Shown in pieces: positions 7,225 through 41,444 of a stretch of 45,250 nt of DNA. The stretch comes from a virus: positions 1 through 45,250 of IMG/VR virus record IMGVR_UViG_3300031857_000378. One strand, given 5' to 3'. A program made the position numbers and the translations under genes. Each line of letters starts with the position of its first letter. The first letter of the stretch is position 1. The notes beneath the pieces are model-generated. The model was not told the DNA's origin, did not search any database, and saw nothing but the letters and a program-made list of their open reading frames with translations.

Positions 7225-7227
7225 GAT

Positions 7228-7656
7228 ATGGCAAAATTATGTGATTTAGGTATTATACAACTTGTTAGACAAGAAGTTAGTGATAAGCCTTGGTATGGAT
7301 ATAATGAAGAGAAAGAACCTAATTTTATTGAGATTAAATCCTCACCTAAAAATAAGGTAAATACTGGTAGTTTTATAGGTGTAGCAAATAGTACTGCACA
7401 AATATTAAATAGAAATATTAATAAAACTGTAGATATTGGTACAGTATTTTATGGGGTATTAGATTATAAAGGTAAGGTAGGGGTTATTATAGCTCCTACC
7501 GATACACAATTAAAGTTATTAAATGCTAAAGAAGATGCCGAAAGAGCTGCTATATTAGCTGAAGAAGAAGAGTCTAAATATAATTTTGATGTAGAGCATC
7601 AGATTATTGAGGATAAAATAAGAAGTGGTGAAATTAAACAAATCTGTGAAGTATAA
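7228..7656 (+). CDS. Hypothetical protein, 142 aa, in virion RNA polymerase cluster
   Basis: I do not recognise the family. The start lies 3 nt after the stop of the RNA polymerase gene, and the stop TAA shares one base with the next ATG (TAATG at 7654-7658), so it is translationally coupled in the late or virion operon. The middle (residues ~45-90) is beta-rich with many small residues, followed by an alanine/glutamate-rich helix (~96-115, AKEDAERAAILAEEEES) that may form a coiled coil. No signal peptide or membrane segment is visible. Position between two giant virion proteins suggests a co-packaged or assembly role, but this is inference. Confidence 0.75.
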   Translation: MAKLCDLGIIQLVRQEVSDKPWYGYNEEKEPNFIEIKSSPKNKVNTGSFIGVANSTAQILNRNINKTVDIGTVFYGVLDYKGKVGVIIAPTDTQLKLLNAKEDAERAAILAEEEESKYNFDVEHQIIEDKIRSGEIKQICEV

Positions 7657-10600: not shown

Positions 10601-11105
10601 AGCTGGTAGTGTGAGAGATTTCAACTCTGTTAGAGAAGCTTTTAACTCATTAAATGATTATGAAAAGTCTAATCTTAAAAAATTACAAGCAGAATTTATA
10701 GTATGGACTAGTTCTGTAATGTTATATTATTTATTTGATGCTATAGCTGAAGGTATAGATGATGATGATGAAGAATTAAAGTTTGTAGTTAACTTCCTTA
10801 AAAGACAATCAGATAGAGTTGGTGGTGAGTTAGATGCTATGATTAATCCTCAATCTGTATATAGTAGTATGAAGAACCCATTTGCTGGTTTAACAACTGC
10901 TAAAGGATTAGGTGATGTTATGGTACAAACTGTTAGATTACCATTCTTATATGCTATTGGTGAAGAAGAAAAAGCATATTATGATAAAGGTCCTAATAAA
11001 GGTAATTTAAAACTTGCTAAAGAAATTAATGATGTAATACCAGTATTAAATATGTCAAATCAATTTGATGCAATTATGAATAGTGGAAATTACTATTTTA
11101 GATAA
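7656..11105 (+). CDS. Large virion protein, 1149 aa, probable capsid-packaged (cargo) protein
   Basis: A very large acidic/basic, mostly helical protein at the end of the plus-strand block. In crAss-like phages, genes of this size next to the virion RNA polymerase encode proteins packaged in the capsid and ejected with it; that assignment is by position and size, not by a catalytic motif. Visible features: helical N-terminal ~290 residues with Lys/Glu-rich coiled-coil stretches, a beta-rich middle (~residues 300-500), a long helical region around 620-700 and a C-terminal helical part including an FKKWMYNFAKNRF segment and a short hydrophobic run (VWTSSVMLYYLFDAIAEGI, ~residue 1010). It shares one base with the preceding gene. 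A convergent terminator region follows the stop. Confidence 0.7.
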   Translation: MSCKYIYKGKTYDYSELVDYVSKTKDSLTDLSSDELKSFAEGIIPETIKTISNRSYERLIGTINKQVEALRKRLIDFESATERKGYIPKEETVNRIKDLEDKLNSLEDVNKFFEIARYVHNELELIHTFLEGSPDGTKHFDMSKEEHIRALLEIEKQLATYKDLATALPEYEEYDNTIKNAAKDINILFKDINESIIEKNATYLENFMDYNSKQDITKEDIKEFLKESKDISIQEMYLGGMSNSMDKLLTLLQKHVEEKRQEVYEITEQHKETISKNQAELNKLGVTDHNWMLQKDANGKLNGRYITPVNGKYYTHSREVRAKLKDELGNKREFIVKPDNELTEDDKKHNLALANDKKVVSQFLKAEQVNEDGSIVDGDNHRYTQEFKDERAKFEEYKFVKGEGNKWVQKAFIEGSTDTNGNPITEEQYNRLYKLFRRKYYTEPKLTYMLKSKYDKATNRYYKDGSVVQVEVTYVKPDYVEVITTKNGKITEYADKDYYKLMTDDSAIGKAKRNYYEFYVKTSNELLSKLPLDVQYTMKNKLFRVRGSLAKDMSANGIGFMNMVKKSIRKFINPDIIFSSRKTDENGDLIEDVPILFVGDFKNNEKITKLNNQLAKLQEELRLNPKDTKLVKRISTLKNTILIEENKLTIDELELDLSKSLVRAAEMAENYNIMKQAETTLLVAKNMIKDKRFFKITSSGEKEYLKGESNVQKRLDIYMRMIFYSTSDKNNNKISKIIQNMNSYTAFKTLGLNPFSAINNRIMAGINNRIEAYGKQFGYNTSHMNRAAAIKQAHVTGMAWLDKFTDKDPYSKVPKDKFQAMLKKFNWLELAHSDYDRGSFINELMFSGISAGEYLAQSTSAIAKLLSVEVTNDKGETTNLWDVYDFKDGKVTIKEGYTFSDEARRKLTVDIRNMNKIIHGNYSDTDKVALQESALGSTALQFKKWMYNFAKNRFGNTYFDETTGDYQEGRYRTALNFIRFIKAGSVRDFNSVREAFNSLNDYEKSNLKKLQAEFIVWTSSVMLYYLFDAIAEGIDDDDEELKFVVNFLKRQSDRVGGELDAMINPQSVYSSMKNPFAGLTTAKGLGDVMVQTVRLPFLYAIGEEEKAYYDKGPNKGNLKLAKEINDVIPVLNMSNQFDAIMNSGNYYFR

Positions 11106-11258
11106 CAGTCTATACCACTGAATAAAAAGATTAAAGTAAGGTATTAGATAGGTTATCTACTAAGATAACATTTGTTTGGTTTGTGATTTGGTTTTTCATA
11201 GACGGTTTGTTTTGTTTGGTTAAAAAAAGGCTGAGGTATATCCCCAGCCTTTATTGTT
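11106..11258. other. Convergent intergenic region with G/T-rich tract
   Basis: This 153-nt gap separates the end of the plus-strand block from the end of the minus-strand block. It has a perfect 6-bp hairpin GTTATC-TACTAA-GATAAC at 11152-11169, then a G/T-rich tract (11171-11222) made of repeated TTTGTTTGG-like units, then the stronger terminator hairpin at 11226-11252. No convincing gene is seen. Confidence 0.6.
11226..11252. terminator. Bidirectional intrinsic terminator between convergent blocks
   Basis: AAAGGCTGAGG and CCCCAGCCTTT form an 11-position stem with one A/C mismatch around a TATAT loop. It is flanked by an A run on the left (11222-11228) and a T-rich run on the right (11250-11260), so it can work for RNA from either strand. 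It sits just past the stop of the minus-strand 67-aa gene and 121 nt past the stop of the plus-strand virion gene, where a shared terminator is expected. Confidence 0.8.
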
Positions 11259-11462
11259 TTATGCTGTTACGGTTTTACTTGTAATAGCAGTAGTTAATAA
11301 TGTTTTGTATTTAACAGCATCACTACGCTTTTTAAAGCATGCTGAATACATCTTACCATTAACTTGTTTACGAATTCTATAAGTACCATTAGGTAATTTT
11401 TGAATTCCATTAGTTGTTTTGTACATTGTAGTTGTGTTGTTGTTTGATTTGTTGTTTTTCAT
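11259..11462 (-). CDS. Small DNA-binding-like protein, 67 aa (AP2 / integrase arm-binding type)
   Basis: After an Asn/Thr-rich N-terminus the core reads as a three-stranded sheet plus helix: GIQKLPNGTYRIRKQVNG, then KMYSACFKKRSDAVKYK. This resembles AP2-like or integrase N-terminal arm-binding domains, which contact DNA with a small beta sheet. No catalytic integrase domain is present, so it is a stand-alone binding module rather than a recombinase. It is the last gene of the minus-strand block, immediately before the terminator. Family assignment is by pattern only. Confidence 0.6.
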   Translation of the reverse strand: MKNNKSNNNTTTMYKTTNGIQKLPNGTYRIRKQVNGKMYSACFKKRSDAVKYKTLLTTAITSKTVTA

Positions 11463-11498
11463 TTGATTTGGTTTTATTTGTTATTTATTATTTATTTA

Positions 11499-12251
11499 TT
11501 AATCTACACCATGAGCTTCTAACTCTTCTTCATATTTCATATTCCATGATAGAATACCTAAGTTATGTGGTGAAAATATTCCTTTTTTAGCTCTATCCTC
11601 ATCAAATGGAGGTTGAGGAACTAGTTTTTTAGTTTCTAATATTAATTCTAATCGAGGAATCATAGATTTAATTAAATATTTATCATCAGTTATATATTCA
11701 TATTCTGTTAGATATTTAATTATATCCTTTTCCCCATCATATAAAATAGAAGCTCTAGTTAATAATGTATATAAACTAATCATTATTGTAGAACTAGTCC
11801 ATTCTTTAGGTACTTTAATTAAAAATCTATCATCATTTGCTGCTTCAATACTAGTCTTAAGACTAAATTCAAGTTTATCTTCAATAATGTTTAAGAATTT
11901 TTGAATATTATGATAATTATTTTTTAATTGCTCAACAGCTTTTTCATAACCATCTTTAGTTATATTATAACCATTGTATTTATCTTTAAGCCATTGTATA
12001 CCAATATAAGCATATTCATCATTAAATATACCAATTGGTTTTTTACATATTAAACCATAAGCTTGTGATTCACAACCTGTATTCTCTGTAAATAATGGTT
12101 CATTTAAAAAGTCCTTACAAGGGGACATTGCAAACATTGTATCATATACCTCTTCACTTTTAGGTAATAAAAATGCAAAAGCCATACCTTGAGATCTACC
12201 TTCAGATAGTTTACTTCTATTACAAACTTCATTTATTGTAACTTTGTTCAT
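11499..12251 (-). CDS. Hypothetical protein, 250 aa
   Basis: I do not recognise the family. The protein is mixed alpha/beta, soluble, without signal peptide or membrane span. It has five cysteines in the first ~70 residues (including SPCKDF, TGCESQAYGLICKK) without clear zinc-ligand spacing. It lies 19 nt downstream of the phosphatase gene on the same strand, so it probably belongs to the NAD/phosphatase operon. The start has an A-rich leader and no Shine-Dalgarno motif. Confidence 0.75.
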   Translation of the reverse strand: MNKVTINEVCNRSKLSEGRSQGMAFAFLLPKSEEVYDTMFAMSPCKDFLNEPLFTENTGCESQAYGLICKKPIGIFNDEYAYIGIQWLKDKYNGYNITKDGYEKAVEQLKNNYHNIQKFLNIIEDKLEFSLKTSIEAANDDRFLIKVPKEWTSSTIMISLYTLLTRASILYDGEKDIIKYLTEYEYITDDKYLIKSMIPRLELILETKKLVPQPPFDEDRAKKGIFSPHNLGILSWNMKYEEELEAHGVD

Positions 12252-12270
12252 ATTCTAAAATTGTTTATTT

Positions 12271-13062
12271 TTAATTTCTACCTTTTTCATTAATATATAG
12301 TTCTTGTAAATCATCTGATTGATAATATTCCTTAGTATCAACATTCATAATAGTTAATTTACCTTTAAACCCACAACCAGTATCTAAATTCCAAATATTC
12401 GCAGCATTCATAGGTTTATCAGTTTTCCAATTCATAGTTGTAGTATGACCTATAAAAACTTCTTTAAACTTATCATACATTTTAAAAGCTGGTCTAACAG
12501 CTAAATCACCTTGTTCAATAGTACCATAGGATAATGCAGCAAGCCACAAATCTCTATCCCATATTAATATATCTTCTCCATTATAAATTTCATCATTAAT
12601 TGGAAAATGTCTATTGAAACCTCCATGTACAAATAATCTATTACTAGAATCAATATAATAAGGTTTTTGTTTACTTAAGAAAAAATCAATATGATTTAAA
12701 GGTATATCAGTAACTAATAAAGAAGTAATATAACCTTGTTTATCAGCACCCCATAATTGTTTATCTAAATTTATACAATATGAATTTAATGTGCCATAAC
12801 CACCTTGATTCCAAGATATAGGATGTTGATCAAATTTTAACCAAGTTCTAAACCAATCATCATGATTTCCACGTATAGCAATTAGATTTTTAATAGTTAA
12901 TAATTCTTCAACACATTCATATACTTCAGACCAACCATCACATATATCTCCTAATTGAATAAGAGTATCTTCTTCTTTATTAAAATTACTTCTTTCTAGA
13001 CATTGTAGGAGGGCTTTATACCCTCCATGAATGTCACCCATTACGAATGTTTTACTTTCCAT
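12271..13062 (-). CDS. PPP-family metallophosphatase (lambda phosphatase / ApaH-like)
   Basis: The metal-binding signature of the PPP family is complete in the N-terminal half: GDIHGG (residues 8-13), GDICDG (~38-43) and GNHDDW (~65-70), with later histidines in VHGGF (~145) and GHTTT (~210). These residues hold two metal ions and hydrolyse phosphate esters or dinucleoside polyphosphates in the cytoplasm. At 263 aa it has the length of phage lambda-type phosphatases. It overlaps the NAMPT stop by 11 nt, so the two are co-expressed; whether its substrate is a protein, a nucleotide or a pyrophosphate intermediate of the NAD pathway cannot be told. Confidence 0.9.
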   Translation of the reverse strand: MESKTFVMGDIHGGYKALLQCLERSNFNKEEDTLIQLGDICDGWSEVYECVEELLTIKNLIAIRGNHDDWFRTWLKFDQHPISWNQGGYGTLNSYCINLDKQLWGADKQGYITSLLVTDIPLNHIDFFLSKQKPYYIDSSNRLFVHGGFNRHFPINDEIYNGEDILIWDRDLWLAALSYGTIEQGDLAVRPAFKMYDKFKEVFIGHTTTMNWKTDKPMNAANIWNLDTGCGFKGKLTIMNVDTKEYYQSDDLQELYINEKGRN

Positions 13063-14614
13063 TTAATCTATTTCTAATTTCATCTAAAGTAGTTTCTTTT
13101 ACAAGTTTACCATCTTTAAATACTGTTGTTAATAATCCTGTTTGTTCTTGTTCCCAAGTACATTGGTCTTCAACTCCAATACTATCAACAAAAGGATTTG
13201 GATGATTAACCCCCATACCTTCAATAACTCTTAATAACCCTTTCTTAGATTTCTTAGTACCATCATCAGTAATAGGGTCTTTGAATATTTCACGAGCTTC
13301 TACATAAGAATCTGTTTCAAAACTACCACCTTTTACTGGAGGATGAGTAATTTCACCATAAGTAGCCTTCATAGCAAATCCAAATGTATCACGAGTATTG
13401 TATTGGTAAGTAAATGAACCTATACCTAATACAATATTAGTACTAGCAAATCCTTTAGCTTTAAGTCTTTCACAAATCTCAATAGCTCTTTCTAAGGTAA
13501 TACTATCACCATAAATAGCTCCAATATGAGGGTCTAATACTTTATAACCTTGTTCATTAATAGTCCCTCCAAAAGTATCCCAAAGTAATTCAATTACTCC
13601 TTTATATTCTGGTTTACCTTGAGCATCATATTCTTTAAAAGACATTGTTTTATTATTTAAACCAACACCACAAATAATATCTACAGGATCTCCTGAATCA
13701 GGTCTAATAACTAATTTACCATCTCTAGCTAAGATTTCAGATTTAAGTTGAGGTAAATATTCAGTACATACTTTCCATAAATCCCATGTATCAGATACTA
13801 CAGATAATATACCTGTTGGATATAAGTTTAATAATCTTTTAAAAGTATCTATTTCAGATTCTTTAGTGCCCATACACATAACACTATGTTCAGTTGCTGG
13901 TACACTATCTCCTATTAATCCTTGGGCCTTGTATGAAGATTCCAATTGATAAATAGCAGGTATAGTATCAGTACCTGTAAAACTTGTAAGGTGTCCCATA
14001 CCAGATAGAGTAGCAGACTCAACTGAAGACATACCACGCATACTAAAATCATGACCTTGCCATTGTACACCCTCTTTACTTCCTGTAGTTTCAAGTGCAT
14101 ATTTATCAAGTATTTTTTTATATTCATAAGCAATTGTTGCTGATGTAACTGGTTGCCAGAGCATACAGCTAATCAAGGTTTCTAAATAATTTACCAACCA
14201 TCCAAAATCAGGATGAGTATTAGTAATAGTCATCATTGGTACTCCAATAGGACATAATGTACCTTCTTCTAAAGCTTTAATTTCAATAGGTAAATAACCT
14301 AATTTCCATAATTCCTTTATATGTTTGGTATCTACATTACAATGTCTTTCATATTCTTCAATCATTTTCCAAAAAGGAACTGTTGAAGATAATGAATGTG
14401 CTCCTGTACCAACTCTTTTACCAAAGAATTCTTCATTGAATTGTTTAATAAGATACTCTAATATAAAATGTTGTATACCAAATACAACTACTTTATCCAC
14501 ACCTTTCATACGTGATTTACGTGGTGTAAAGTTAGAGTATAGTTTAGTCATACCTTCTGGATACATATTGGTATGATGAATTTTGTAGCTATCTACAAGT
14601 AATAATGGGTTCAT
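13052..14614 (-). CDS. nadV: Nicotinamide phosphoribosyltransferase (NAMPT)
   Basis: Full-length NAMPT (520 aa). It joins nicotinamide to an activated ribose (PRPP, giving NMN; or, in NARP1-type enzymes, ADP-ribose pyrophosphate, giving NAD+ directly). Visible landmarks: LVDSYKIHH at 6-14, FGIQHFI at 45-51, QGHDFSMRG at 186-194, ATEHS at 240-244 with the catalytic-type histidine, RPDSGDP at 304-310 binding the diphosphate, and GIGSFTYQYNTRD at 397-409. It follows the PRPP-synthetase-like gene by 2 nt and overlaps the phosphatase, so substrate maker and user are coupled. No NMN adenylyltransferase is seen in the window, which leaves either a host enzyme or direct NAD+ formation. Confidence 0.95.
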   Translation of the reverse strand: MNPLLLVDSYKIHHTNMYPEGMTKLYSNFTPRKSRMKGVDKVVVFGIQHFILEYLIKQFNEEFFGKRVGTGAHSLSSTVPFWKMIEEYERHCNVDTKHIKELWKLGYLPIEIKALEEGTLCPIGVPMMTITNTHPDFGWLVNYLETLISCMLWQPVTSATIAYEYKKILDKYALETTGSKEGVQWQGHDFSMRGMSSVESATLSGMGHLTSFTGTDTIPAIYQLESSYKAQGLIGDSVPATEHSVMCMGTKESEIDTFKRLLNLYPTGILSVVSDTWDLWKVCTEYLPQLKSEILARDGKLVIRPDSGDPVDIICGVGLNNKTMSFKEYDAQGKPEYKGVIELLWDTFGGTINEQGYKVLDPHIGAIYGDSITLERAIEICERLKAKGFASTNIVLGIGSFTYQYNTRDTFGFAMKATYGEITHPPVKGGSFETDSYVEAREIFKDPITDDGTKKSKKGLLRVIEGMGVNHPNPFVDSIGVEDQCTWEQEQTGLLTTVFKDGKLVKETTLDEIRNRLNGK

Positions 14615-14616
14615 GT

Positions 14617-15531
14617 TTAATATACGTTAAGTTGTTTTACAAAGTCCTGTGTATCAGGATTTAATTGTTTATAAGAATTTGTAGTATAAATAGCATCAAA
14701 ATATTGTTGTAATTCACCAAATCCTTTAGAAAATATACCATGCGTTACTATTAGATATATTTTAGATGTAGTGTTTTCTGTTAATACTCCTTGTGATTTT
14801 AATGCTTTTACTATATTAATAAATGTAGCACCACCATCACAAATATCATCAATAATAATTAAATCTTTACCGTATTGATCTCCACCTAAACCTGGTACTT
14901 TTATTTTAGTTAATTTACCATTTTCATCTCTATCCTTACTACAAGTAATAACATCTCCTTTATAACCTATTTGTTCAGCTAGTTTATAAATCTTTTTACT
15001 TGCACCAGCATCTGGTGATACTAGAATAACATCAGATGATGTATAATTAAATAATTTTCCATTAGAAGATGATATTTGAGATAAAGCAAATTCAACTAAT
15101 TCTAAATTAGATATTTTTTCTAATTTATTAATACAATTTTCAGCTACATCAGAATGTGGGTCTATACAAGTTACCGATTCAAAGTTTTGAGCATTTAATA
15201 AAGGTGCAATAATATCTTTAACATATCTATTACCACCTTCTTGAAATAATCTATCACTTCTTAATCCCATGATATATGGTACATAAAGATGAATTTCTTT
15301 TACTTTAAGATTTCTAAGTGCTTTAGTAGCACATATAATCATTAATAAATCTTCAGCATTATTAAGTCTTGATTTAATTTGAACTGATTGAGTATTTATA
15401 TGTTTTCCCCAATCATTACCATTAGTTATTACCCAAGAAGTAATTACAATATCCCTTTGTCCATCAGGATAGTTAATAATTTGATATTTTATATCAGACT
15501 TATCAATGTCTGTTAAATCTAATATTTTCAT
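14617..15531 (-). CDS. prs: Ribose-phosphate pyrophosphokinase-like enzyme (PRPP synthetase or ADP-ribose pyrophosphokinase)
   Basis: 304 aa with the two-domain phosphoribosyltransferase layout. The PRPP loop IIIDDICDGGATF is at 226-238, SPDAGASKK at 172-180, and CIDPHSD at 122-128 stands where bacterial enzymes have DLHA. The usual YARQDR loop is replaced by MGLRSDR (88-94), so the active-site edge differs from housekeeping Prs. Known phage pairs of this gene with NAMPT work either by making PRPP or, in the NARP1 pathway, by pyrophosphorylating ADP-ribose. The gene sits 2 nt upstream of nadV. Enzyme class is firm; the true substrate is open. Confidence 0.9.
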   Translation of the reverse strand: MKILDLTDIDKSDIKYQIINYPDGQRDIVITSWVITNGNDWGKHINTQSVQIKSRLNNAEDLLMIICATKALRNLKVKEIHLYVPYIMGLRSDRLFQEGGNRYVKDIIAPLLNAQNFESVTCIDPHSDVAENCINKLEKISNLELVEFALSQISSSNGKLFNYTSSDVILVSPDAGASKKIYKLAEQIGYKGDVITCSKDRDENGKLTKIKVPGLGGDQYGKDLIIIDDICDGGATFINIVKALKSQGVLTENTTSKIYLIVTHGIFSKGFGELQQYFDAIYTTNSYKQLNPDTQDFVKQLNVY

Positions 15532-27619: not shown

Positions 27620-27854
27620 CTTCTACGTAAAATCCTAAATTTTGATGTAATAATCGAGTTTCCTCAAGTATCTCATTTAAATTTGGACTATAATACTCTT
27701 CTAACTCCTCTATAGATATTTCTACATTAAAGTTAATTTTTAATTGATTAATTATTTCTTCATAATTATTTGTTTTTAAGAGTTTATAACGTTTCAGTAA
27801 GTTTATATAAATGTGTAACTCAGATTGATCTATTTTTACTTTAGTTAAGAGCAT
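27603..27854 (-). CDS. Small hypothetical protein, 83 aa
   Basis: Unrecognised, helical and acidic at its C-terminus. It overlaps both neighbours (17 nt with the loader-like gene, 14 nt with the GATase gene), so it links the amidoligase island to the replication operon in one transcript. The pattern YEEIINQLKINFNVEISIEE suggests a small helical bundle; no function can be given. Confidence 0.65.
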   Translation of the reverse strand: MLLTKVKIDQSELHIYINLLKRYKLLKTNNYEEIINQLKINFNVEISIEELEEYYSPNLNEILEETRLLHQNLGFYVEDGDYS

Positions 27855-29205
27855 TTACAACAGAATTCCATTCTTTTTTAATAGTGTTATCATAAGTTAC
27901 AGCACGAGCAATTGTATCATCTTTTTCTTCATCTTTATTATCAGTTGTTACTGAAATATGAAGATTAGGATTAGGACATTTTACATACTTATAATCTAAT
28001 TCCGTTGGATCTTTTAAGTAATCTTCTTTAAAATAATTGTAATATTCTAATAAAGCACCTCTCGTAAAGTAAACACCTAATCTATTATGAAATACTTTAA
28101 AATCATCACTTTTATGTCTAGAGTTGTTTAATTGAGCATATAACTTTTTCAAAACTTTCTTAGAAGGTTCTAAATCACGTAATAACACTAAATATTCTCT
28201 ATAATAATTTGCTACTGAATTTAAAGGTCCAAAAAAATATTCTGTATGTAAAGCATGTTCATTAACACTTAACGTATTACTATTATCAAATGTTAATACA
28301 TTAAGAAGACATTTCTGATCATATGATTTAAAATTAAACACTTTAGTATACCAAATATTATTAAGGTCTTTCTTCATGTATATGAAATTCATATAATTAT
28401 GATCTGTAATTCTAATATAAGAACCATCTAATACTAATGAGTTATGTTTAGATAACATCTTATCAATACCTATTTTATAATCTTTCAAATAAGTATCTGC
28501 TTTAGGATATGTAGATTTATTTTCTAAAGATTCTAAAGGCTTTGGTTCTTCTTTTTTTTTGAAGACTCCTCCATAATCTCTATAGTAACCATCTTTATAA
28601 CCTAAATTAGAATGAAAATAACCATTATCTTCAATAAAATCCCCAAATTTGATTAAATCTCTATCTGGAAATAAAAAACACATTTTACTAGTATTTAGAT
28701 AAGGATTCATTACTTTTAAGAATAATTCTAAATTAGATTTTAATAAATTCTGTATATGAATGTTAGACATAATAAATCTAGCAAAAGCATATGTATCAGA
28801 ATTATTAAAATTACCTACTCTAAAATCATAAATAGCATTATTTGTTAATGTACCATTATGAACTAAACAAGGTTTATCAAATTTAGCACCAAAAATCTTA
28901 TGAATATCATCTTCTACAAATGAACATACAAAAGGATGAGTGTTAAGGTCATTTTTATTACCAATGTTACCAATTCTATGATGAATAACTAATTCATCAT
29001 CTTTAGATAAATTACAATCTTTAATATCTTGTAATAACCATTGTAAATCATTATAACCTTTACTTAAATAAACTTCATTTTCTCCAAGTTTTTTATACAT
29101 AAAACCTGAACCATCACCATTGTTAGAGTAACCATTTGTAATAAAACTTATAGTTTCATCTGTTAACTTTTCAGTACCTTTCGGTAAAATTGATATTATA
29201 CACAT
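27841..29205 (-). CDS. Class II glutamine amidotransferase-like protein (second of two)
   Basis: Begins MCIISILPKG: removal of Met leaves an N-terminal Cys, the nucleophile of class II (Ntn) glutamine amidotransferases. Further site residues are ELVIHHRIGNIG (~residue 75), THPF and LVHNGTL (~115), which shape the glutamine pocket and oxyanion hole. The ~240-residue C-terminal part (after a Lys/Glu/Pro linker at ~225) is unfamiliar and has no synthetase motif. The enzyme would release ammonia or transfer glutaminyl nitrogen. Its start overlaps the amidoligase stop by 10 nt, indicating a joint function. Confidence 0.8.
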   Translation of the reverse strand: MCIISILPKGTEKLTDETISFITNGYSNNGDGSGFMYKKLGENEVYLSKGYNDLQWLLQDIKDCNLSKDDELVIHHRIGNIGNKNDLNTHPFVCSFVEDDIHKIFGAKFDKPCLVHNGTLTNNAIYDFRVGNFNNSDTYAFARFIMSNIHIQNLLKSNLELFLKVMNPYLNTSKMCFLFPDRDLIKFGDFIEDNGYFHSNLGYKDGYYRDYGGVFKKKEEPKPLESLENKSTYPKADTYLKDYKIGIDKMLSKHNSLVLDGSYIRITDHNYMNFIYMKKDLNNIWYTKVFNFKSYDQKCLLNVLTFDNSNTLSVNEHALHTEYFFGPLNSVANYYREYLVLLRDLEPSKKVLKKLYAQLNNSRHKSDDFKVFHNRLGVYFTRGALLEYYNYFKEDYLKDPTELDYKYVKCPNPNLHISVTTDNKDEEKDDTIARAVTYDNTIKKEWNSVVNALN

Positions 29206-30668
29206 TGTATTGCTCCTTTCACAGTTAATAGTTCATCCTCATTTGTTTCATTATAATCGTTTAATTCTGTTTGTAAATTTTCCATATCTGTAGCAGGTTT
29301 TGAAAATAAAGATACTCTTTCATTAATATAACTAACTATAGAACAACCTGTTTTAGGGTAAGCTAATAACATAATTTCTTCCAAATTTAGAATATTACCT
29401 TTAAGAATATCTCGTTTATGATTTTCAACATACCATAAAATACCCATATGAATTAATGTCCAATTTTTAATCTTACGATAATTAGTTGTAGCACTATGAT
29501 TTCTAATTTCAATAGTTTTAGCAGATAAATTATGTTTAGTATCAAAAATAGCTGGTACAAAATTTAACCAACAGTATCTAGCACTATGATGTTTATAACC
29601 ACATTTATGCCCCCAAGGATGTTCTGATTTTTTATTAAATTTATAATTACTTTGATTATTATTTGATACAAAATCAAATAAACCTAAATAAGCATTTTCT
29701 ATGAATAAATTATATTCATATACAGAATTTAATTGATTTTCAGTTATGTTAGTTAAACAATCAGTAATTTTATTAAGTTTTCTACAATATGTATTTTTGT
29801 ATCTACTAGAAGGTAATATTGAAAATATAGATTTTTCTAATATGAAATATACTTTATACAAAGCTATTAAATTCTCTTTAGAAAATTCAATACCTGATAA
29901 GTGAAGATGAAGCCCGCACTTCTTATCAATTTTACATCTTCTAGTTACTTCTACAGATAAACGTTTAGCTTGTAAAAAACCAGTATCACCAGTTAGAATA
30001 CCTGTTACATATTCAGCACCTATAGGATCTTCTCCATTAGGTCCACGTAATGAACCATCATGAACAGCATTATAATTTAAATACTTATCTAAATATTGAG
30101 GTAATCTACCGTAAATTGTTTCAAGTTCTAATCCAAACTTGTAACGTTTACCTTCAGTTATTTTAAAACTTGGAGATTTAACACCCATTAAATAATCATA
30201 TTTTAAATCACCTGTTGGTTGATATTCAGCATTTTTAACCTTTCTGTAAATAATAGGTTCGGATCTATCATATTTATCAGTAGGTGTTGAAATATGATAA
30301 AATAAACCCGTAGTATAATCTTCCACATATAAATTTAAAGGTATTGATTCATATGTAGCAGTATGTAAATTTAATTTCTTATCAAATAATATACAACTTT
30401 TTGATATATCTTTTGTATATGAACAATTGGTATAATCTGGTATATCATCATTAAATTTATTAATAACTTTACTACATTCATGTATGAATTCATTTTTTCC
30501 TGTAAAACAATCCTTTATTACATTAGGGTCATTAATATGAGCATATACTCCAGAAGGTACTAAAAAAATAGCATCTTTTCTTGATATTAATTTACCATCA
30601 TAAGTTTTTACAGTATCATCTTCTTTCTTACTTGATATATTAGCATAAAAGCCTTTTGTTAACGCCAT
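29196..30668 (-). CDS. Amidoligase (Amidoligase_2, glutamine-synthetase-fold COOH-NH2 ligase)
   Basis: The core residues of Amidoligase_2 are visible: FGLELET (178-184) for metal/ATP, HDGSL (203-207), GAEYVTG (217-223), CGLHLHLSG (251-259) and TIEIRNHSAT (385-394) with the phosphate-contacting Arg. Such enzymes use ATP to join a carboxylate to an amine, for example gamma-glutamylation or peptide-tag formation. The N-terminal ~165 residues are an extra domain of unknown fold. It is sandwiched between two class II GATases with overlaps of 28 and 10 nt, which is unusually tight and suggests a complex. Confidence 0.85.
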   Translation of the reverse strand: MALTKGFYANISSKKEDDTVKTYDGKLISRKDAIFLVPSGVYAHINDPNVIKDCFTGKNEFIHECSKVINKFNDDIPDYTNCSYTKDISKSCILFDKKLNLHTATYESIPLNLYVEDYTTGLFYHISTPTDKYDRSEPIIYRKVKNAEYQPTGDLKYDYLMGVKSPSFKITEGKRYKFGLELETIYGRLPQYLDKYLNYNAVHDGSLRGPNGEDPIGAEYVTGILTGDTGFLQAKRLSVEVTRRCKIDKKCGLHLHLSGIEFSKENLIALYKVYFILEKSIFSILPSSRYKNTYCRKLNKITDCLTNITENQLNSVYEYNLFIENAYLGLFDFVSNNNQSNYKFNKKSEHPWGHKCGYKHHSARYCWLNFVPAIFDTKHNLSAKTIEIRNHSATTNYRKIKNWTLIHMGILWYVENHKRDILKGNILNLEEIMLLAYPKTGCSIVSYINERVSLFSKPATDMENLQTELNDYNETNEDELLTVKGAIQCV

Positions 30669-32142
30669 TGTTTTTAGTATTATCAGTTAATAATTCATGT
30701 CTTTTTGCAATTTCTTCAAAATATCCCATTGTTTCAATTCTTTCATTTTGAATAACTTTTAAAGATTCTTCTGTTAATAAAGGTGAAACATATTTAAATA
30801 GTTTTTCATATCTATCTTCAATAGAAATAAAATCTATAATTAGATCATCTTTATCTACTACAATTAAATTAGGATCTTTATTTTCAATAAGAGCTTCTTT
30901 TTCAATTGTAGATTCAGTATTTAAATCTGTAACATCTTCAAAACTATCAATTAATTCAGGAGTTTCTGTATTCTCAGGAATATCTAAGAAATTTAAAACT
31001 AATTGATTTTCAGGTTTACTTGTATAAGTATCAATTATATACTGTTCTTCATCAACATCAACTCTTTCAATTAAATTTTTAGGGATAGTTGTTATGATAG
31101 TAGTATCATTTAGCTTAAAAGCTTTAACTGTACATTTAGCAACGTTATTAGACGTAACTTTAAAGTAATCACCTTTATCAGCAATTTTTATTTCATCTTT
31201 ACCACTACCTAATACTAAATCACATAAAGCTTTAACATAACAATCATCAATAATTATTTTTTTCTCATAGTCAAAATCAAATTTACTAAGTTCAGCCCAT
31301 TCACCTTTATCATTTGTAATTGTAAGATATTGGGTAGTCATATTGAAACCTTCTATTAAATAAGATTTATCTAATGTTAAGTCCTTTTCCCAATAACCAC
31401 ATCTTAATAAAGGTAACCATTGTCCCATTAGCATATTAACAGGATAAATTTCTCTAAATGTAGTTTTAGTATGAGTATAATTATGATAAGGTGTATTTTT
31501 AATAAATCTATAATCAATTATTTTACCATCTTTAATAGCATATAAATAATTTTCTTTAAATTCTTTAATTTTACTACATCCAATCAACTTCAATGATTCT
31601 TTAATTGATGATATATACATATCTTCACCTAACATACCTCTAAATAATGGTCTTTCACTATTTCTAAAAGCATATAAAATGTTAGGAGTTTTATCATGGT
31701 GAATTAAAAATGCAGCAGCACCATCTATTTCTGAAATCACATTGAAGTTTTGATCCTTACCAATGATTCCAGCAATAACTTGACTATCTACACTAAAATC
31801 AGCATACTTAAAATCATTTTTATAGATTAAATCATAATGATTTTTTAAAGTACCATTATGTAATAATGTTACACCATTATATTGAAAAGGATGTGCATTT
31901 TCAGGTTTCTTTTTATCACCTACTGTTGCAGCTCTAACATGAGCCATGAATATACTATCATCTAATATAGTATTTTGTTGGACAAAATCAAAACCATTGT
32001 CTGTAGTTTTAAGTAATCCATTATTAGGACTATATATACCTGTTGCATCAATACCTCTTTCAAAGGTATTCCACATAATTAATTGTATAATTTTATCCTT
32101 GTTAAATTTGTTTTTTGAGCTAAAACCTATAATTCCGCACAT
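30640..32142 (-). CDS. Class II glutamine amidotransferase (GlmS/Ntn type) with extra C-terminal region
   Basis: MCGIIGFSS gives the N-terminal cysteine nucleophile. HVRAATVG, AHPFQYNG and LLHNGTLKN are the other GATase-II site motifs; SVDSQVIAG and EIDGAAAFLI match the GlmS-type domain (to ~residue 200). The remainder has a beta-rich region (~220-360) and an acidic helical tail; no sugar-isomerase or synthetase domain is present, so the ammonia acceptor must be another protein, likely the overlapping amidoligase. It starts after a ~90-nt gap holding a strong hairpin. Confidence 0.9.
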   Translation of the reverse strand: MCGIIGFSSKNKFNKDKIIQLIMWNTFERGIDATGIYSPNNGLLKTTDNGFDFVQQNTILDDSIFMAHVRAATVGDKKKPENAHPFQYNGVTLLHNGTLKNHYDLIYKNDFKYADFSVDSQVIAGIIGKDQNFNVISEIDGAAAFLIHHDKTPNILYAFRNSERPLFRGMLGEDMYISSIKESLKLIGCSKIKEFKENYLYAIKDGKIIDYRFIKNTPYHNYTHTKTTFREIYPVNMLMGQWLPLLRCGYWEKDLTLDKSYLIEGFNMTTQYLTITNDKGEWAELSKFDFDYEKKIIIDDCYVKALCDLVLGSGKDEIKIADKGDYFKVTSNNVAKCTVKAFKLNDTTIITTIPKNLIERVDVDEEQYIIDTYTSKPENQLVLNFLDIPENTETPELIDSFEDVTDLNTESTIEKEALIENKDPNLIVVDKDDLIIDFISIEDRYEKLFKYVSPLLTEESLKVIQNERIETMGYFEEIAKRHELLTDNTKNNGVNKRLLC

Positions 32143-32178
32143 AGTGTTTATTTTTATTTTATAAATGTTTATTAATAA

Positions 32179-32200
32179 GTGATAGCTAACTAGCTACCAC
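32179..32200 (-). terminator. Strong hairpin between the two parts of the amidoligase island
   Basis: In minus-strand RNA, GUGGUAGCUA and UAGCUAUCAC form a 10-bp stem (one G-U) with a 2-nt loop. It lies between the phiEco32-type ligase gene and the GATase gene. The following sequence is A/U-rich without a long U-run, so it could be a partial terminator or a processing/stability element. Confidence 0.5.
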
Positions 32201-32245
32201 ATCTGAATCATCTGGTAATTCATCAAAATAATTAAGCAAATTCAT
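32186..32245 (-). CDS. Possible 19-aa acidic micro-ORF
   Basis: ATG at 32245 overlaps the end of the phiEco32-type ligase gene; the peptide is MNLLNYFDELPDDSDVVAS and ends in TAG inside the hairpin at 32179-32200. It may be a leader peptide or chance. No other support. Confidence 0.2.
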   Translation of the reverse strand: MNLLNYFDELPDDSDVVAS

Positions 32246-33056
32246 TATGATATACCTCCTCTTCATTTGGAATTGTTAAGTTATAATCTTCAATAATTTC
32301 TTGAGCCATAGCTTTATTACCTGTATTGATACATTCCATAATATCATCTTCATTAGTAATAATACCATTGATATTAACAAATTCACAAGCTTTTAAAGTA
32401 TTTTCAAAAACCCATGTTCTTAATACAGGATTAAATAACCAGAAATTACTTAAAGTTCTATGTTCTACACCAAAAGATTTAAATCTCATAGCACCTGCTT
32501 TACCATATAAAGCTCTTCTACGAACATCTTCATCAATAAGTACACTTGGTACAGATAAGAATAAATCCATAGCTTTAATTAAAGCTATAGAAGTTTGCTC
32601 ATTAGGATTATCATATCCTACAGATATATGACCACCACAAGCTCTTATATTGTTTTCATAACCTTTAGGGTTATTTACATTAAGAGTCCATGCTGATAAA
32701 TCTGGATCACAACCAATTTCCCATGCTTCTCTGCAATTTAATTGATCTTCAGTAAATTCAGCTGTAACAGCTTCTGAAATAATCAAGTTTTTAGGTTTTG
32801 CAATAGTATCTCTAATATAACCTACAACAAATTGTAATTCTTTGTTGAATTGTTCTGCAGTTACACATGGTGGGATATTTACTTCACATGATACACCATC
32901 CACTTGTATCATATGTCCATTTTCTGATATTACTTTAGGGTCTTTCTTTGTACCTTCATACATGCCTACAGCAGATATAAATTTATTTTCTAATTGAGAA
33001 TATAGAAAGAATTCAGGATCTGTCCCAATAGTAATATTTTTAATTTTTTGTTCCAT
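32232..33056 (-). CDS. PhiEco32-type COOH-NH2 ligase (type 2 amidoligase)
   Basis: Matches the phage phiEco32-like COOH.NH2 ligase family: GTDPEFF (11-17), DGVSCEVN (53-60), CGGHISVG (140-147), YGKAGAMR (184-191), FGVEHRTLSNFW (195-206). These residues line the ATP and metal site of the glutamine-synthetase-like fold. It forms amide bonds between a carboxylate and an amine; the natural substrate is not known for this family. This is the second GS-fold ligase in the island, only ~1.6 kb from the Amidoligase_2 gene but of a clearly different subfamily. Confidence 0.9.
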   Translation of the reverse strand: MEQKIKNITIGTDPEFFLYSQLENKFISAVGMYEGTKKDPKVISENGHMIQVDGVSCEVNIPPCVTAEQFNKELQFVVGYIRDTIAKPKNLIISEAVTAEFTEDQLNCREAWEIGCDPDLSAWTLNVNNPKGYENNIRACGGHISVGYDNPNEQTSIALIKAMDLFLSVPSVLIDEDVRRRALYGKAGAMRFKSFGVEHRTLSNFWLFNPVLRTWVFENTLKACEFVNINGIITNEDDIMECINTGNKAMAQEIIEDYNLTIPNEEEVYHNEFA

Positions 33057-33079
33057 ATTAGTTTATAATTTTTAAGTGA

Positions 33080-33568
33080 TTAATTTAAATATTTCATATA
33101 ATAGTTTATAAGATTACCAGTTCTGTTATTACGATATTCTTCTTTAAACAATTCAAATCCGTCTTTCACTAATTCAAGATTAAGTTTATGTTCTTTATAA
33201 GAAGTTATTAAAATATTTGAAAAGTTCAAACCAATTGCTAATTTAGTTATAATTTTTAAAAATAATTCATAATATTCATAACTTATCATATAATCATGTA
33301 CAACAAGTGTTGAACATTGTCCTGGTAAAGTTGATATTCTAAAGTCAATAAATGATGAACCTTTATAAGAATCGAATCTTATACTTTTAATATCATTATA
33401 AAATAAACCTGATATTTGATTTATTAAATCTTTATCTTTTAAGATATTTGGAAAATCTTTAAAAATACTAAGAAATTCATCAGCTATAATATCACCATCT
33501 TCATCTAAGAATTGTCCTGTAGTTATTTCAACTTCTTCAATTACTTTTTTTTCTTTTATCTTACTCAT
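33080..33568 (-). CDS. Hypothetical protein, 162 aa, in amidoligase island
   Basis: Unrecognised. After a charged N-terminus it is alpha/beta, with strands SFIDFRIS and CSTLVVHDYMIS and a C-terminal LVKDGFELFKEEYRNNRTGN stretch that faintly resembles the end of GNAT acetyltransferases. No acetyl-CoA P-loop (Q/RxxGxG/A) is visible, so I do not call it one. It overlaps the PuuD-like gene by 4 nt, so it belongs to the island. Confidence 0.65.
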   Translation of the reverse strand: MSKIKEKKVIEEVEITTGQFLDEDGDIIADEFLSIFKDFPNILKDKDLINQISGLFYNDIKSIRFDSYKGSSFIDFRISTLPGQCSTLVVHDYMISYEYYELFLKIITKLAIGLNFSNILITSYKEHKLNLELVKDGFELFKEEYRNNRTGNLINYYMKYLN

Positions 33569-34206
33569 AATTCCTTGTTTAAAAATTTATCTAATAAAGA
33601 TTGATAATAATCAATCATAATAATTTCTGAAGGACTACTTGGTGGATAACACCATTCAGGATGTGATTGTATACCTAAACAATTTGTTTTATAATATACA
33701 ACATCTTCACATTCTACTTCAGGATTAACTTCATCATTATTACCATCTTTATGAAATGGTGATAAATTTTCAGTCCACCCTAAAATAGTATATTCTTCTT
33801 TAGGTAAACTAAATGGTAATTGTGCTTGATGATGTGATGATGTTACTCTAATAGTTCTACCATCTTTAGTAAATAAATCATGTTTACTACCTGGGTTTGA
33901 TTGATGTTGAATTAATTTACCACCAGACATCACACATAAGAATTGAGCACCTCTACAAATACCAATACAAGGTAAACTTAATTCTTTAGCTTTTTGATAT
34001 TTCTCAACTTCATATTTATCCCTTGCAGGATTACATGATGTAGTATAATGCTTATGCGAAGTATACAATTCAGGATTTACATCTTCACCACCTGTAAATA
34101 CTACTAAATCAGCATCTTTCATATCTTCAACAAGTTCACCTTGCATCCAATTCATGTAATCAATACTAGTACCTACTACATATATTTTTCTTTTATTCAT
34201 ATTCAA
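33565..34206 (-). CDS. PuuD-like gamma-glutamyl hydrolase (peptidase C26 / class I GATase fold)
   Basis: Catalytic triad residues are in place: nucleophile C84 in GICRGAQ, and H182/E184 in QSHPEW. TGGEDVNPELY (38-48) and SSHHQAQ (123-129) are features of the PuuD branch that cleaves gamma-glutamyl amides rather than feeding ammonia to a synthetase. So it may remove gamma-glutamyl groups added by the amidoligases. It overlaps the 225-aa gene by 14 nt. An ammonia-donor role cannot be excluded without structure comparison. Confidence 0.85.
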   Translation of the reverse strand: MNMNKRKIYVVGTSIDYMNWMQGELVEDMKDADLVVFTGGEDVNPELYTSHKHYTTSCNPARDKYEVEKYQKAKELSLPCIGICRGAQFLCVMSGGKLIQHQSNPGSKHDLFTKDGRTIRVTSSHHQAQLPFSLPKEEYTILGWTENLSPFHKDGNNDEVNPEVECEDVVYYKTNCLGIQSHPEWCYPPSSPSEIIMIDYYQSLLDKFLNKEL

Positions 34207-34870
34207 ATATTTTAAAATCTTTTAATTCTTGTTTATACTCTTCTACACTTTTATTGTAAGGAAATGATATGGCTTTACAGAATGTATGAGTAACACTGTA
34301 TTGATGCCATTTTAAATCTTCATATTTAAAAGGATATTTAAAATCAGAATCTATTAAACTATGATTACTATTCCAAAAATTTCCACCATTATTATCAGTT
34401 ATAGCAAAATTAGCCCATAATAATAAATATAATAAATCTTCTTCAGGATATTTCTCAACTAATTTAATAAAATATCCTGGAACTTTATAATACATATCAT
34501 TACCATTATGACCATTATTTTCCCATAAATATCTGATAATCATACAAGTAGCTGCTAATTTTTCTTGCGTATCATAATCTTTAAAATATAATTTAAAAAA
34601 ATGAGTATCTTTTAATTTACGATATTCAAATTTAATAAATGGTATTTTATTAACTAATTCACAATATAATTTAACTTCATCATCAGTATAAGCAGGTAGA
34701 AATTCTTCTTTACAATATATTAAAGCATAATTAACATCTTCATTATTTACATATTGTTTTAAACTATAAAAACAAATACTTTTTTTCCAATCTTTTGTTC
34801 TAACACCTTTGAAAAATCTTACTCTATAATTATGGTTTTGATATGTATTTTGTTTATCTGATAATTTCAT
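34193..34870 (-). CDS. Hypothetical protein, 225 aa, in amidoligase island
   Basis: No family recognised. It is aromatic-rich and soluble, with a long central helical region (LAATCMIIRYLWENNG, LLYLLLWANFAITDN). Overlaps the GGCT gene by 17 nt and the PuuD-like gene by 14 nt; such tight coupling on both sides makes it a likely functional part of the island, perhaps a partner or substrate carrier. No acyl-carrier serine motif is visible. Confidence 0.7.
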   Translation of the reverse strand: MKLSDKQNTYQNHNYRVRFFKGVRTKDWKKSICFYSLKQYVNNEDVNYALIYCKEEFLPAYTDDEVKLYCELVNKIPFIKFEYRKLKDTHFFKLYFKDYDTQEKLAATCMIIRYLWENNGHNGNDMYYKVPGYFIKLVEKYPEEDLLYLLLWANFAITDNNGGNFWNSNHSLIDSDFKYPFKYEDLKWHQYSVTHTFCKAISFPYNKSVEEYKQELKDFKIFEYE

Positions 34871-35243
34871 GTTTATTATTATCTTTTAAATAATTAGACC
34901 AATCTCCTGATTCAACTAAGTTTTTATCACTAACAGGACCTTCATATACATATAAAGTAGTATCAATACCATCTATACTTAGTTGTTTACAAGAATATCC
35001 TGCACCCAACTCCATTTCTGTAATGGAATAATATAAATCTTCTGATACTTCTAATATATCTACCAATAAAGTTTCAACTCCTTGTGATTCTTTGATTCCT
35101 GGATAAGAACCTAATGAGTATAACTTATAACCTTCAAGCATAACAGTTCTGATATATTTCATATCTTCACCATATCTGGATTTAAAGTAATTATAGTTAT
35201 ACTCACCAACTCTTAACGAACCATATACACATATACGTTTCAT
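34854..35243 (-). CDS. Gamma-glutamylcyclotransferase (AIG2/GGCT/BtrG-like)
   Basis: The glycine-rich loop VYGSLRVGE (6-14) and the acidic residue E78 in EMELGAGYSCKQL define the GGCT fold; later TTLYVYEGP closes the barrel. These enzymes release 5-oxoproline from gamma-glutamyl amines. In butirosin biosynthesis, BtrG of this fold removes a protective gamma-glutamyl group that an ATP-grasp ligase put on; the same pair of folds occurs here next to each other. It starts 9 nt after the ATP-grasp stop. Confidence 0.85.
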   Translation of the reverse strand: MKRICVYGSLRVGEYNYNYFKSRYGEDMKYIRTVMLEGYKLYSLGSYPGIKESQGVETLLVDILEVSEDLYYSITEMELGAGYSCKQLSIDGIDTTLYVYEGPVSDKNLVESGDWSNYLKDNNKHEIIR

Positions 35244-35252
35244 ATTTATAAT

Positions 35253-36200
35253 TTATTTTTTATTAGGATCTCTGTCTTCAAAATGATAATCATGCCATGC
35301 ATAATTACTAGCTTTTTTAAATTCTTTAAGTTCCCAGTGTTCTCTACGTTTATTATCTTTACATAACCAATCAAAATATTTTGCATAACGTTGCATAGAA
35401 TATTCACTAGACGCTAATGTAGCTGCTGTATTAACTTCAAGTATAAATACTTTACCATCTTTATCAACCATTACATCAACACCTGCAAAATCTAATTCTA
35501 ATGCTTGTACAGCTTTAATAGCTTCCATACAAATATCAGTATCATATTCATCCCATTTAACATTTTCAAATGCTTCACCATTTTGAGCTCTGTTCCATGC
35601 AATATTACCATCAGCAGGTTTAGGTTTTTCTAAGTAATTTAAGATTCTACCATGTGCTACATGCAATCTATATTCCTTAATCTTATCTACAAATGCTGAA
35701 TAATACCAATCTATATGATTATTTTTATGTACCTCATATTGATTTAAATTGTTTAAAATAACAAAGTTTTTACCTTTTGAATGTTTTGAAGGTCTTGCAA
35801 TAATTGGAAAATCAGACTGTTGAATATCAGCAGCACTTTTAATTAATTTAGGTGTACTAACACCTTTAGCAATGAAAATCTCTCTAGACTTCTTCTTGTT
35901 ACAACCATTACTAATTGCTTCAGCTTTATTATAAACAATACTATTAGTTAAGTTAACTTGAATAGTATTACCCCAACGAACAACAATTTTATTTGTTAAA
36001 TCATTGTTTTGAATAGGTGTTTTAACAAAAGCATTGCTATTATGATTAGTATAAATTCTAAAGTATTCTACAATACCTTTCTTTTTAACTAATTTTCTTC
36101 TAACATGTAATTCTGAAGAATTCTCCATTTTAGAATACACACCTTTCATTGAAGGTCTACCATCTTTACCAACTAATATGGTTAATTTATTATTTATCAT
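35253..36200 (-). CDS. ATP-grasp ligase (RimK-like)
   Basis: ATP-grasp landmarks: FPIIARPSKHSKGKNF (131-146) holds the lysine/glycine-rich loop, EYRLHVAHG (176-184), DFAGVDVMVD (237-246) and VFILEVNTAATL (251-262) with the metal-binding E255 and N257. The enzyme makes an acyl-phosphate from a carboxylate and joins it to an amine, as in RimK glutamylation. At 315 aa it has a short N-terminal pre-domain. Its start overlaps the 368-aa gene by 4 nt. The substrate is unknown; see the island finding. Confidence 0.9.
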   Translation of the reverse strand: MINNKLTILVGKDGRPSMKGVYSKMENSSELHVRRKLVKKKGIVEYFRIYTNHNSNAFVKTPIQNNDLTNKIVVRWGNTIQVNLTNSIVYNKAEAISNGCNKKKSREIFIAKGVSTPKLIKSAADIQQSDFPIIARPSKHSKGKNFVILNNLNQYEVHKNNHIDWYYSAFVDKIKEYRLHVAHGRILNYLEKPKPADGNIAWNRAQNGEAFENVKWDEYDTDICMEAIKAVQALELDFAGVDVMVDKDGKVFILEVNTAATLASSEYSMQRYAKYFDWLCKDNKRREHWELKEFKKASNYAWHDYHFEDRDPNKK

Positions 36201-41038: not shown

Positions 41039-41053
41039 ACTTTTATTCGTTTG

Positions 41054-41444
41054 TGGAGGTGGGGGGAATCGAACCCCCGTCTTATTCCCACATATTTATA
41101 ACTTTCTACATGTTTAGCACTGTTTTTCTTCTGTTACAGAATAACTCTGGATGGTTATACCAGCAATCTACTAGTTTATTTAAGTTATATCTAAATAAAC
41201 AAAGCTTGTTTTCCTAAATTAGGCTGCTTCCAGCTCTAACTCTACTGCTTTAGGAGCAGGTGTGAATTGAATCACTTTTGCAGAAGTAGCTTTTACAACT
41301 GATAGGACATCTGCGATGCCTCCTACCTCGTTGGTTATTACACATTTGTCAGTTAAGACTTGAAAACATAGATTAAAGTGATAGTTAACATCTCACTACA
41401 TGCTTATTATAAATTGTAAGGTAATCAAGTGCCATATCACCCCC
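41054..41444 (-). ncRNA. ssrA: Transfer-messenger RNA (tmRNA)
   Basis: Both ends of a tmRNA are present on the minus strand. The 5' end reads GGGGGTGATATGGCACTTGA and its first 7 nt pair with CACCTCC at the 3' end. The 3' part has the tmRNA signature AAACATGTAGAAAG and a T-arm GGGGG-TTCGATT-CCCCC, then discriminator A; CCA is not encoded. A tag reading frame ends at TAA (41219-41221). After it lie pseudoknot-type stems, such as the perfect 9-bp GTTTATTTA/TAAATAAAC. Length ~391 nt is normal. tmRNA rescues stalled ribosomes and tags the unfinished protein. Phage-encoded copies are uncommon. A structured ~90-nt leader (41445-41531) precedes it. Confidence 0.92.
41219..41281 (-). other. tmRNA tag reading frame
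   Basis: Read from GCA at 41281 the tag is AKVIQFTPAPKAVELELEAA, then TAA. The exact resume codon is uncertain, because the frame stays open for ~57 codons upstream; GCT at 41290 is another candidate. The end is LELEAA rather than the common ALAA. Confidence 0.6.

Follow-up and report, generated by a model that had tools for sequence, protein, structure and literature searches.

Which chemistry does a virus perform with three ligases, two glutamine amidotransferases and two hydrolases encoded side by side? The question is raised by IMG/VR record IMGVR_UViG_3300031857_000378, one entire virus record of 45,250 bp, which we analysed as a single stretch (the window). Its minus strand carries an island of such genes at 27841-36200 (Table 1). 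We identify it as a complete phiEco32-type phage amidoligase module. We hold with moderate confidence that the module provides an early or middle, cytosolic, multi-step amide-forming pathway. The module itself was already known; the recurring Cys-Arg-His proteins in phage amidoligase modules are new here. Our literature search found no paper naming both 'crAss-like' and 'amidoligase'.

A COOH.NH2 ligase (PF14395), an Amidoligase_2 protein (AmL), a class-II glutamine amidotransferase (GATase; the 500-aa protein is called GATII) and an ATP-grasp ligase are encoded together in the island, as in the phiEco32-type module. All open reading frames (ORFs) of the interval were present, tightly packed on the minus strand. 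A sequence-only reading of this DNA had listed seven enzymes, and the list was right. Six had Pfam or PHROG matches, and the 454-aa GATase (GAT454), which had no Pfam match, was recognised by its profile resemblance to phage class-II GATases and by its conserved residues. Overlaps of 4-29 nt join u368/ATP-grasp, GGCT/u225, u225/C26, C26/u162, GATII/AmL and AmL/GAT454 (GGCT, gamma-glutamylcyclotransferase), so the overlap coupling proposed for the 162- and 225-aa proteins was also confirmed.

Table 1. Module genes and other features of the window.
Feature	Length (aa)	Position	Strand	Support
GAT454, second class-II GATase, downstream of amidoligase	454	27841..29205	-	phage class-II GATase profile
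Amidoligase_2 (AmL, GS fold)	490	29196..30668	-	PF12224 3.2e-10
GATII, class-II GATase	500	30640..32142	-	GATase_6 2.7e-10
phiEco32-type COOH.NH2 ligase (PF14395, GS fold)	274	32232..33056	-	COOH-NH2_lig 1e-10; phrog_3815 5.3e-66
u162, possible GNAT-like protein with conserved Cys motif	162	33080..33568	-	remote profile link
C26/PuuD-type class-I glutaminase-fold hydrolase	213	33565..34206	-	Peptidase_C26 4.5e-19
u225, divergent Cys-Arg-His module protein	225	34193..34870	-	C33, R113, E117, H170; alignment, profile, model
GGCT (GGACT/AIG2, YtfP-like)	129	34854..35243	-	GGACT 4.6e-12
ATP-grasp ligase, R2K/RimK-like, predicted carboxylate-amine ligase	315	35253..36200	-	R2K_2 2.4e-8, RimK 1.2e-6 (Pfam)
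u250, extra module protein outside the island		11499..12251	-	invariant C45, D47, R166, H229
crAss-like RNA polymerase homologue	2155	757-7224		C-terminal NADAR domain, residues 1958-2081, 1.8e-11
Nicotinamide phosphoribosyltransferase and ribose-phosphate pyrophosphokinase		13052-15531		adjacent genes
tmRNA, full length		41051-41444		Rfam 81 bits

Each window protein was aligned with up to 70 homologues per family. Judging from these alignments, every module enzyme keeps its conserved catalytic residues and none appears degenerate. In the ATP-grasp ligase, D242, E255, N257, R178 and K192 are near-invariant (70 homologues), and the Mg-binding D242 and E255-x-N257 and the ExR strand E176-x-R178 are intact, as in R2K/RimK-like enzymes. 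GGCT keeps the Y7-G8-x-L10 (YGSL) loop and E78 (the latter in 63 of 70) of the GGACT family, and its closest solved relative is YtfP (1xhs, 4.5e-9). GATII shares C2, R29, H68-x-R70, N96-G97 and D119 with 70/70 homologues; the kept residues of GAT454 are C2, H75-x-R77, H116-N117-G118 and D137. Amidoligase_2, for which sequence search found no solved relative, retains E181, E183, H254, H256, R364, E387 and R389. Invariant residues of the COOH.NH2 ligase are D13, E15, D53, E58, C116, R138, H143, R180, E198 and R200; its Cys116 was found in 70/70 family sequences. The C26 protein has the C84, H182, E184 triad and the S-x-H-H-Q motif of PuuD/C26 proteins (70 homologues). A role for it as a class-I GATase supplying the COOH.NH2 ligase was rejected, since this motif and the Pfam scores (Peptidase_C26 4.5e-19 versus GATase 5.9e-7) favour C26.

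Viral contigs were scanned with two profiles, amidoligase (62 loci) and ATP-grasp (80 loci), and the ORFs of these loci were censused. The 62 loci seeded by amidoligase only also carried GATII (61), COOH.NH2 ligase (53), C26 (50), ATP-grasp (46) and GGCT (42). A near-constant order recurred, with variants: primase-GGCT-ATP-grasp-C26-COOH.NH2-GATII-AmL-UDG. The genes therefore co-occur more than by chance. Over all loci, GATII lay directly before the amidoligase 78 or 79 times, and the pairs COOH.NH2 ligase-GATII, C26-COOH.NH2 ligase and GGCT-ATP-grasp were adjacent 47, 44 and 28 times; an amidoligase followed by a class-II GATase, as AmL is by GAT454 in the window, is also found at L007, L008, L077, L113, L120 and other loci. 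Relatives thus keep these genes clustered, not scattered. Scattered genes or missing catalytic residues would have spoken against the sequence-only reading, and neither was seen. The island had been called expanded, but its set is not notably larger than those of its relatives, as many modules hold 6-8 of these genes. In Lbo-JY46 (5186-13673), three C26-type tblastn matches surround one ligase set. Three other loci (L044, L054, L058) have homing-endonuclease-like ORFs between two amidoligase pieces, as if a mobile intron interrupts the gene.

By protein search, relatives of the COOH.NH2 ligase were found in 315 phage records and the window-type amidoligase in 13. Near-identical DNA was absent from the phage collection, and a single-sequence scan of viral contigs with the COOH.NH2 ligase returned no relative. 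The amidoligase appears to be largely viral, because only two loci turned up when 84,980 cellular genomes were scanned by pattern, a method that divergent relatives can escape.

The same core exists in phi14:2, cr108_1, the cyanophage Lbo-JY46, phiEco32, GAP52, PaP3 and UFV-P2, and in several phage lineages it lies beside primase or helicase genes. In phiEco32 (phi32_77 to phi32_88), GAP52, PaP3 and UFV-P2, one block near primase/helicase encodes GGCT, ATP-grasp, class-II GATase, COOH.NH2 ligase and amidoligase, although the amidoligase-equivalent gene of GAP52 is annotated as hypothetical. Unlike the window, phiEco32 shows no C26 and no second GATase, and two hypothetical proteins of 323 and 399 aa lie beside its COOH.NH2 ligase. 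The LUZ24-like modules (PaP3, UFV-P2, Rembedalsseter) have the core ligases of the window, but in another gene order, with a gene for a protein of 186-192 aa separating COOH.NH2 ligase from amidoligase, and no C26 seen; early/middle expression is known for PaP3. phi14:2 and cr108_1 share with the window the order ATP-grasp, COOH.NH2 ligase, GATII, amidoligase, UDG. However, phi14:2 has GGCT without C26, cr108_1 has C26 without GGCT, and neither has a second GATase. Their ATP-grasp gene comes after primase with one gene in between, whereas the window operon sits between a DNA polymerase gene and DnaB. The module is thus conserved within a replication block, as the sequence-only reading held, and its crAss-like placement (Crassvirales) is supported too, as the 2155-aa protein matches the phi14:2 RNA polymerase (5e-15) and many crAss-like records. 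No virion genes were recognised on the 45,250-bp fragment.

The same reading had suggested that a gamma-glutamyl group is added and then removed. Butirosin side-chain protection (BtrJ/BtrG) uses an ATP-grasp ligase and a GGCT-type enzyme, and the Puu pathway (PuuA/PuuD) a GS-fold ligase and a C26 hydrolase. Unlike the butirosin system, the window shows no recognised carrier protein, decarboxylase or aminoglycoside gene; in contrast to Puu, no oxidase or dehydrogenase was recognised in it and C26 is dispensable to the module. Among 74 dereplicated modules, 32 had both GGCT and C26, 13 only GGCT, 23 only C26 and 6 neither. C26 is thus absent from 19/74 modules, phi14:2 included, and the ligases are not obligate partners of C26 as in a Puu-type system. 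Annotation of the blocks of phiEco32, PaP3, GAP52, UFV-P2 and phi14:2 showed no C26 gene. The two hydrolases are present independently of each other (Fisher p 0.59; neither expected in 7.4 modules, observed in 6), and on this ground we rejected the idea that they are interchangeable removal enzymes. An add-then-remove cycle would predict an indispensable removal step. The scheme is partly supported: the amide/gamma-glutamyl module is conserved, but a fixed gamma-glutamyl cycle is not, as neither hydrolase is universal. Since 6/74 modules lack both hydrolases and the two are independent, the data neither demand such a cycle nor rule against it.

Relatives express the module early or in the middle of infection and translate its proteins. 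In PaP3 the core module falls within ORF32-48, whose expression peaks at 10-30 min, in the middle phase (PMC4707531). ORF49-71 are early by clustering, while inhibitors place ORF22-56 in the middle class, so that the class of ORF49-50, early or middle, varies with the method (PMC4707531). For the phiEco32-like phage SU10, mass spectrometry of a polyethylene glycol (PEG) concentrate revealed peptides of the ATP-grasp, GATase and YtfP-like proteins (PMC4281155). PaP3 timing and SU10 proteins fit an intracellular role during replication. Early/middle expression does not favour virion protein, one of the targets listed by the sequence-only reading.

Outside the interval first described lies one further module component, u250. 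Its homologues lie in the module or next to it in L001, L007, L071 and Lbo-JY46 (L004), and about 10 genes downstream of it in several crAss-like contigs. C45, D47, R166, H229 and G232 are kept in an 11-sequence alignment. The AlphaFold (AF2) model of u250 had pLDDT 81 and pTM 0.85; a PDB search gave no solved structure at E <= 0.001, and one uncharacterised phage protein matched among viral structure models.

No close relatives of u225 were found among the viral contigs or in the phage collection. It aligns with uncharacterised proteins encoded in the modules of crAss-like and LUZ24-like contigs. Start Met aside, only C33, R113 and H170 are invariant in 23 diverse module proteins, and E117 nearly so. 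Compared with a LUZ24-like family by hhalign, u225 outscored 120/120 decoys. Its AF2 model (pLDDT 63 overall, the core better) has the predicted topology strand-strand-Cys-helix-strand-helix-strand-strand-helix ending in Arg, which the u250 model resembles apart from additional short strands. Foldseek against viral models matched the u225 model to a crAss-like ctelJ1 protein (prob 1.00) and a GAP52 protein (prob 0.98). Judged by its length, the latter seems to be gp028, whose gene lies two genes away from that of the GAP52 COOH.NH2 ligase. A 671-aa Mimiviridae (ChoanoV1) protein also matched in the viral model library (probability 0.99).

As aligned, u225 and u250 share the order of their Cys, Arg and His residues. 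Along with the likeness of their predicted topologies and a weak structural match common to both, this suggests that the two may belong to one superfamily. Profile searches found a protein of u225 or u250 type in 59/111 modules; such proteins are therefore frequent, and universality is not proven. Judged by eye and gene position alone, phiEco32 gp87/gp88 and PaP3 orf49/orf50 also looked like Cys-Arg-His proteins, but profile scores gave no support. A larger proposal unites u225, u250 and their relatives in a single new superfamily of enzymes or acyl carriers whose fold the PDB does not yet contain, and which with the three ligases and the class-II glutaminases would build a previously undescribed amide-linked product needed by unrelated phages during replication; we put this forward tentatively and lean against it. 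u162 may be GNAT-like: hhalign gave 67% to a module-protein profile of which some members hit Acetyltransf_1 (best 8.7e-8), all being remote relatives. Another family of module proteins (f8) was tried as a GNAT relative and had no hhalign support.

We infer from the enzyme families how a multi-step amide-forming pathway would work in the cytosol during replication. GATII and Amidoligase_2 would convert a carboxylate to a carboxamide with ammonia from glutamine; their steady pairing suggests such glutamine-fed amidation. The COOH.NH2 and ATP-grasp ligases would attach amino-acid or glutamyl units. Trimming of gamma-glutamyl intermediates, or recycling of by-products, would fall to GGCT and, in the modules that have it, to C26. 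Of the Cys-Arg-His proteins, u225 and u250 would either carry an acyl intermediate, holding it or passing it on, or serve to dock a variable target. A host protein, a small metabolite or a cytosolic precursor of peptidoglycan is the probable substrate, and not the phage genome.

Several points weigh against this pathway. The carboxamide role proposed for GATII and amidoligase is drawn by analogy from asparagine synthetase. Many modules lack GGCT and many lack C26, which makes their place in the pathway tentative. The SU10 peptides show expression rather than location, because the sample was a PEG concentrate. The putative u225-u250 link depends on the three likenesses named above, and hhalign does not join the two sequence profiles.

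A doubtful but serious rival is envelope modification, in which the module would modify peptidoglycan precursors, or some other surface polymer, by amidation or amino-acid addition and thereby keep competing phages out of the infected cell. Such cell-wall modification with a block to superinfection was proposed for phiEco32 by Iyer et al. 2009, as cited in PMC10580990 and PMC11318856, and the MurT-GatD ligase/glutaminase pair is an established peptidoglycan amidation system (PMC5871853). D-Ala-D-Ala ligases are also among the closest solved relatives of the ATP-grasp profile. However, the module has no recognised glycosyltransferase or transporter, PaP3 expression coincides with the replication genes, and the literature found gives no experimental test of the claim.

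Protein tagging is unlikely as well. The RimK/R2K-like ATP-grasp and GS-fold ligases would tag a host protein, for example a replication or ribosomal factor, with glutamyl or other amino-acid residues, and GGCT/C26 would trim these tags. This agrees with the R2K and RimK matches of the ATP-grasp ligase and with the prediction that phage R2K enzymes modify host proteins, and fast-evolving partner proteins could supply target specificity. But three unrelated ligases seem too many for one tag, and GGCT enzymes usually act on small gamma-glutamyl compounds.

We know of no assimilation route with two GS-fold ligases and divergent partner proteins, and we consider it quite improbable that the module is auxiliary nitrogen or amino-acid metabolism aiding host growth or nucleotide synthesis. 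Growth tests and the presence of the same gene families led to such a claim for phage ZRK32, but in the available part of that report the growth effect is not linked to these genes by mutation (PMC10945688), and the ZRK32 record is partial and unverified.

Hypermodification of DNA or nucleotides by amide-linked groups is least probable of all: although the module lies beside replication genes and CmoX/CmoY places 5-carboxymethylcytosine-glycine amides on phage DNA using other ligases (PMC12783734), CmoY has an asparagine-synthetase fold and lies beside CmoA/CmoX while the window ligases are of GS fold and ATP-grasp type, the window proteins scanned included no methyltransferase or other recognised base-modifying enzyme, and Rembedalsseter, which encodes COOH.NH2 ligase and amidoligase, showed nicks and no modified bases when its native DNA was read by nanopore (PMC11780129), a result that disfavours this target too, with the caveats that a rare or signal-silent modification could escape and that one relative need not represent crAss-like phages.

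Other features of the window were also noted. The NADAR domain in the RNA polymerase polypeptide is a possible ADP-ribose-removing counter-defence domain. The tmRNA gene has the predicted tag APKAVELELEAA, and a tRNA-Leu lies nearby. The nicotinamide phosphoribosyltransferase and ribose-phosphate pyrophosphokinase genes, a pair linked to NAD+ reconstitution pathway 2, also accompany the amidoligase module in Lbo-JY46 and GAP52.

In conclusion, phages of Bacteroidota, Pseudomonadota and Cyanobacteria all retain this costly enzyme set, which points to a widespread and still undefined infection chemistry. Since phiEco32, PaP3/LUZ24 and phi14:2 are named isolates, its substrate is directly testable.

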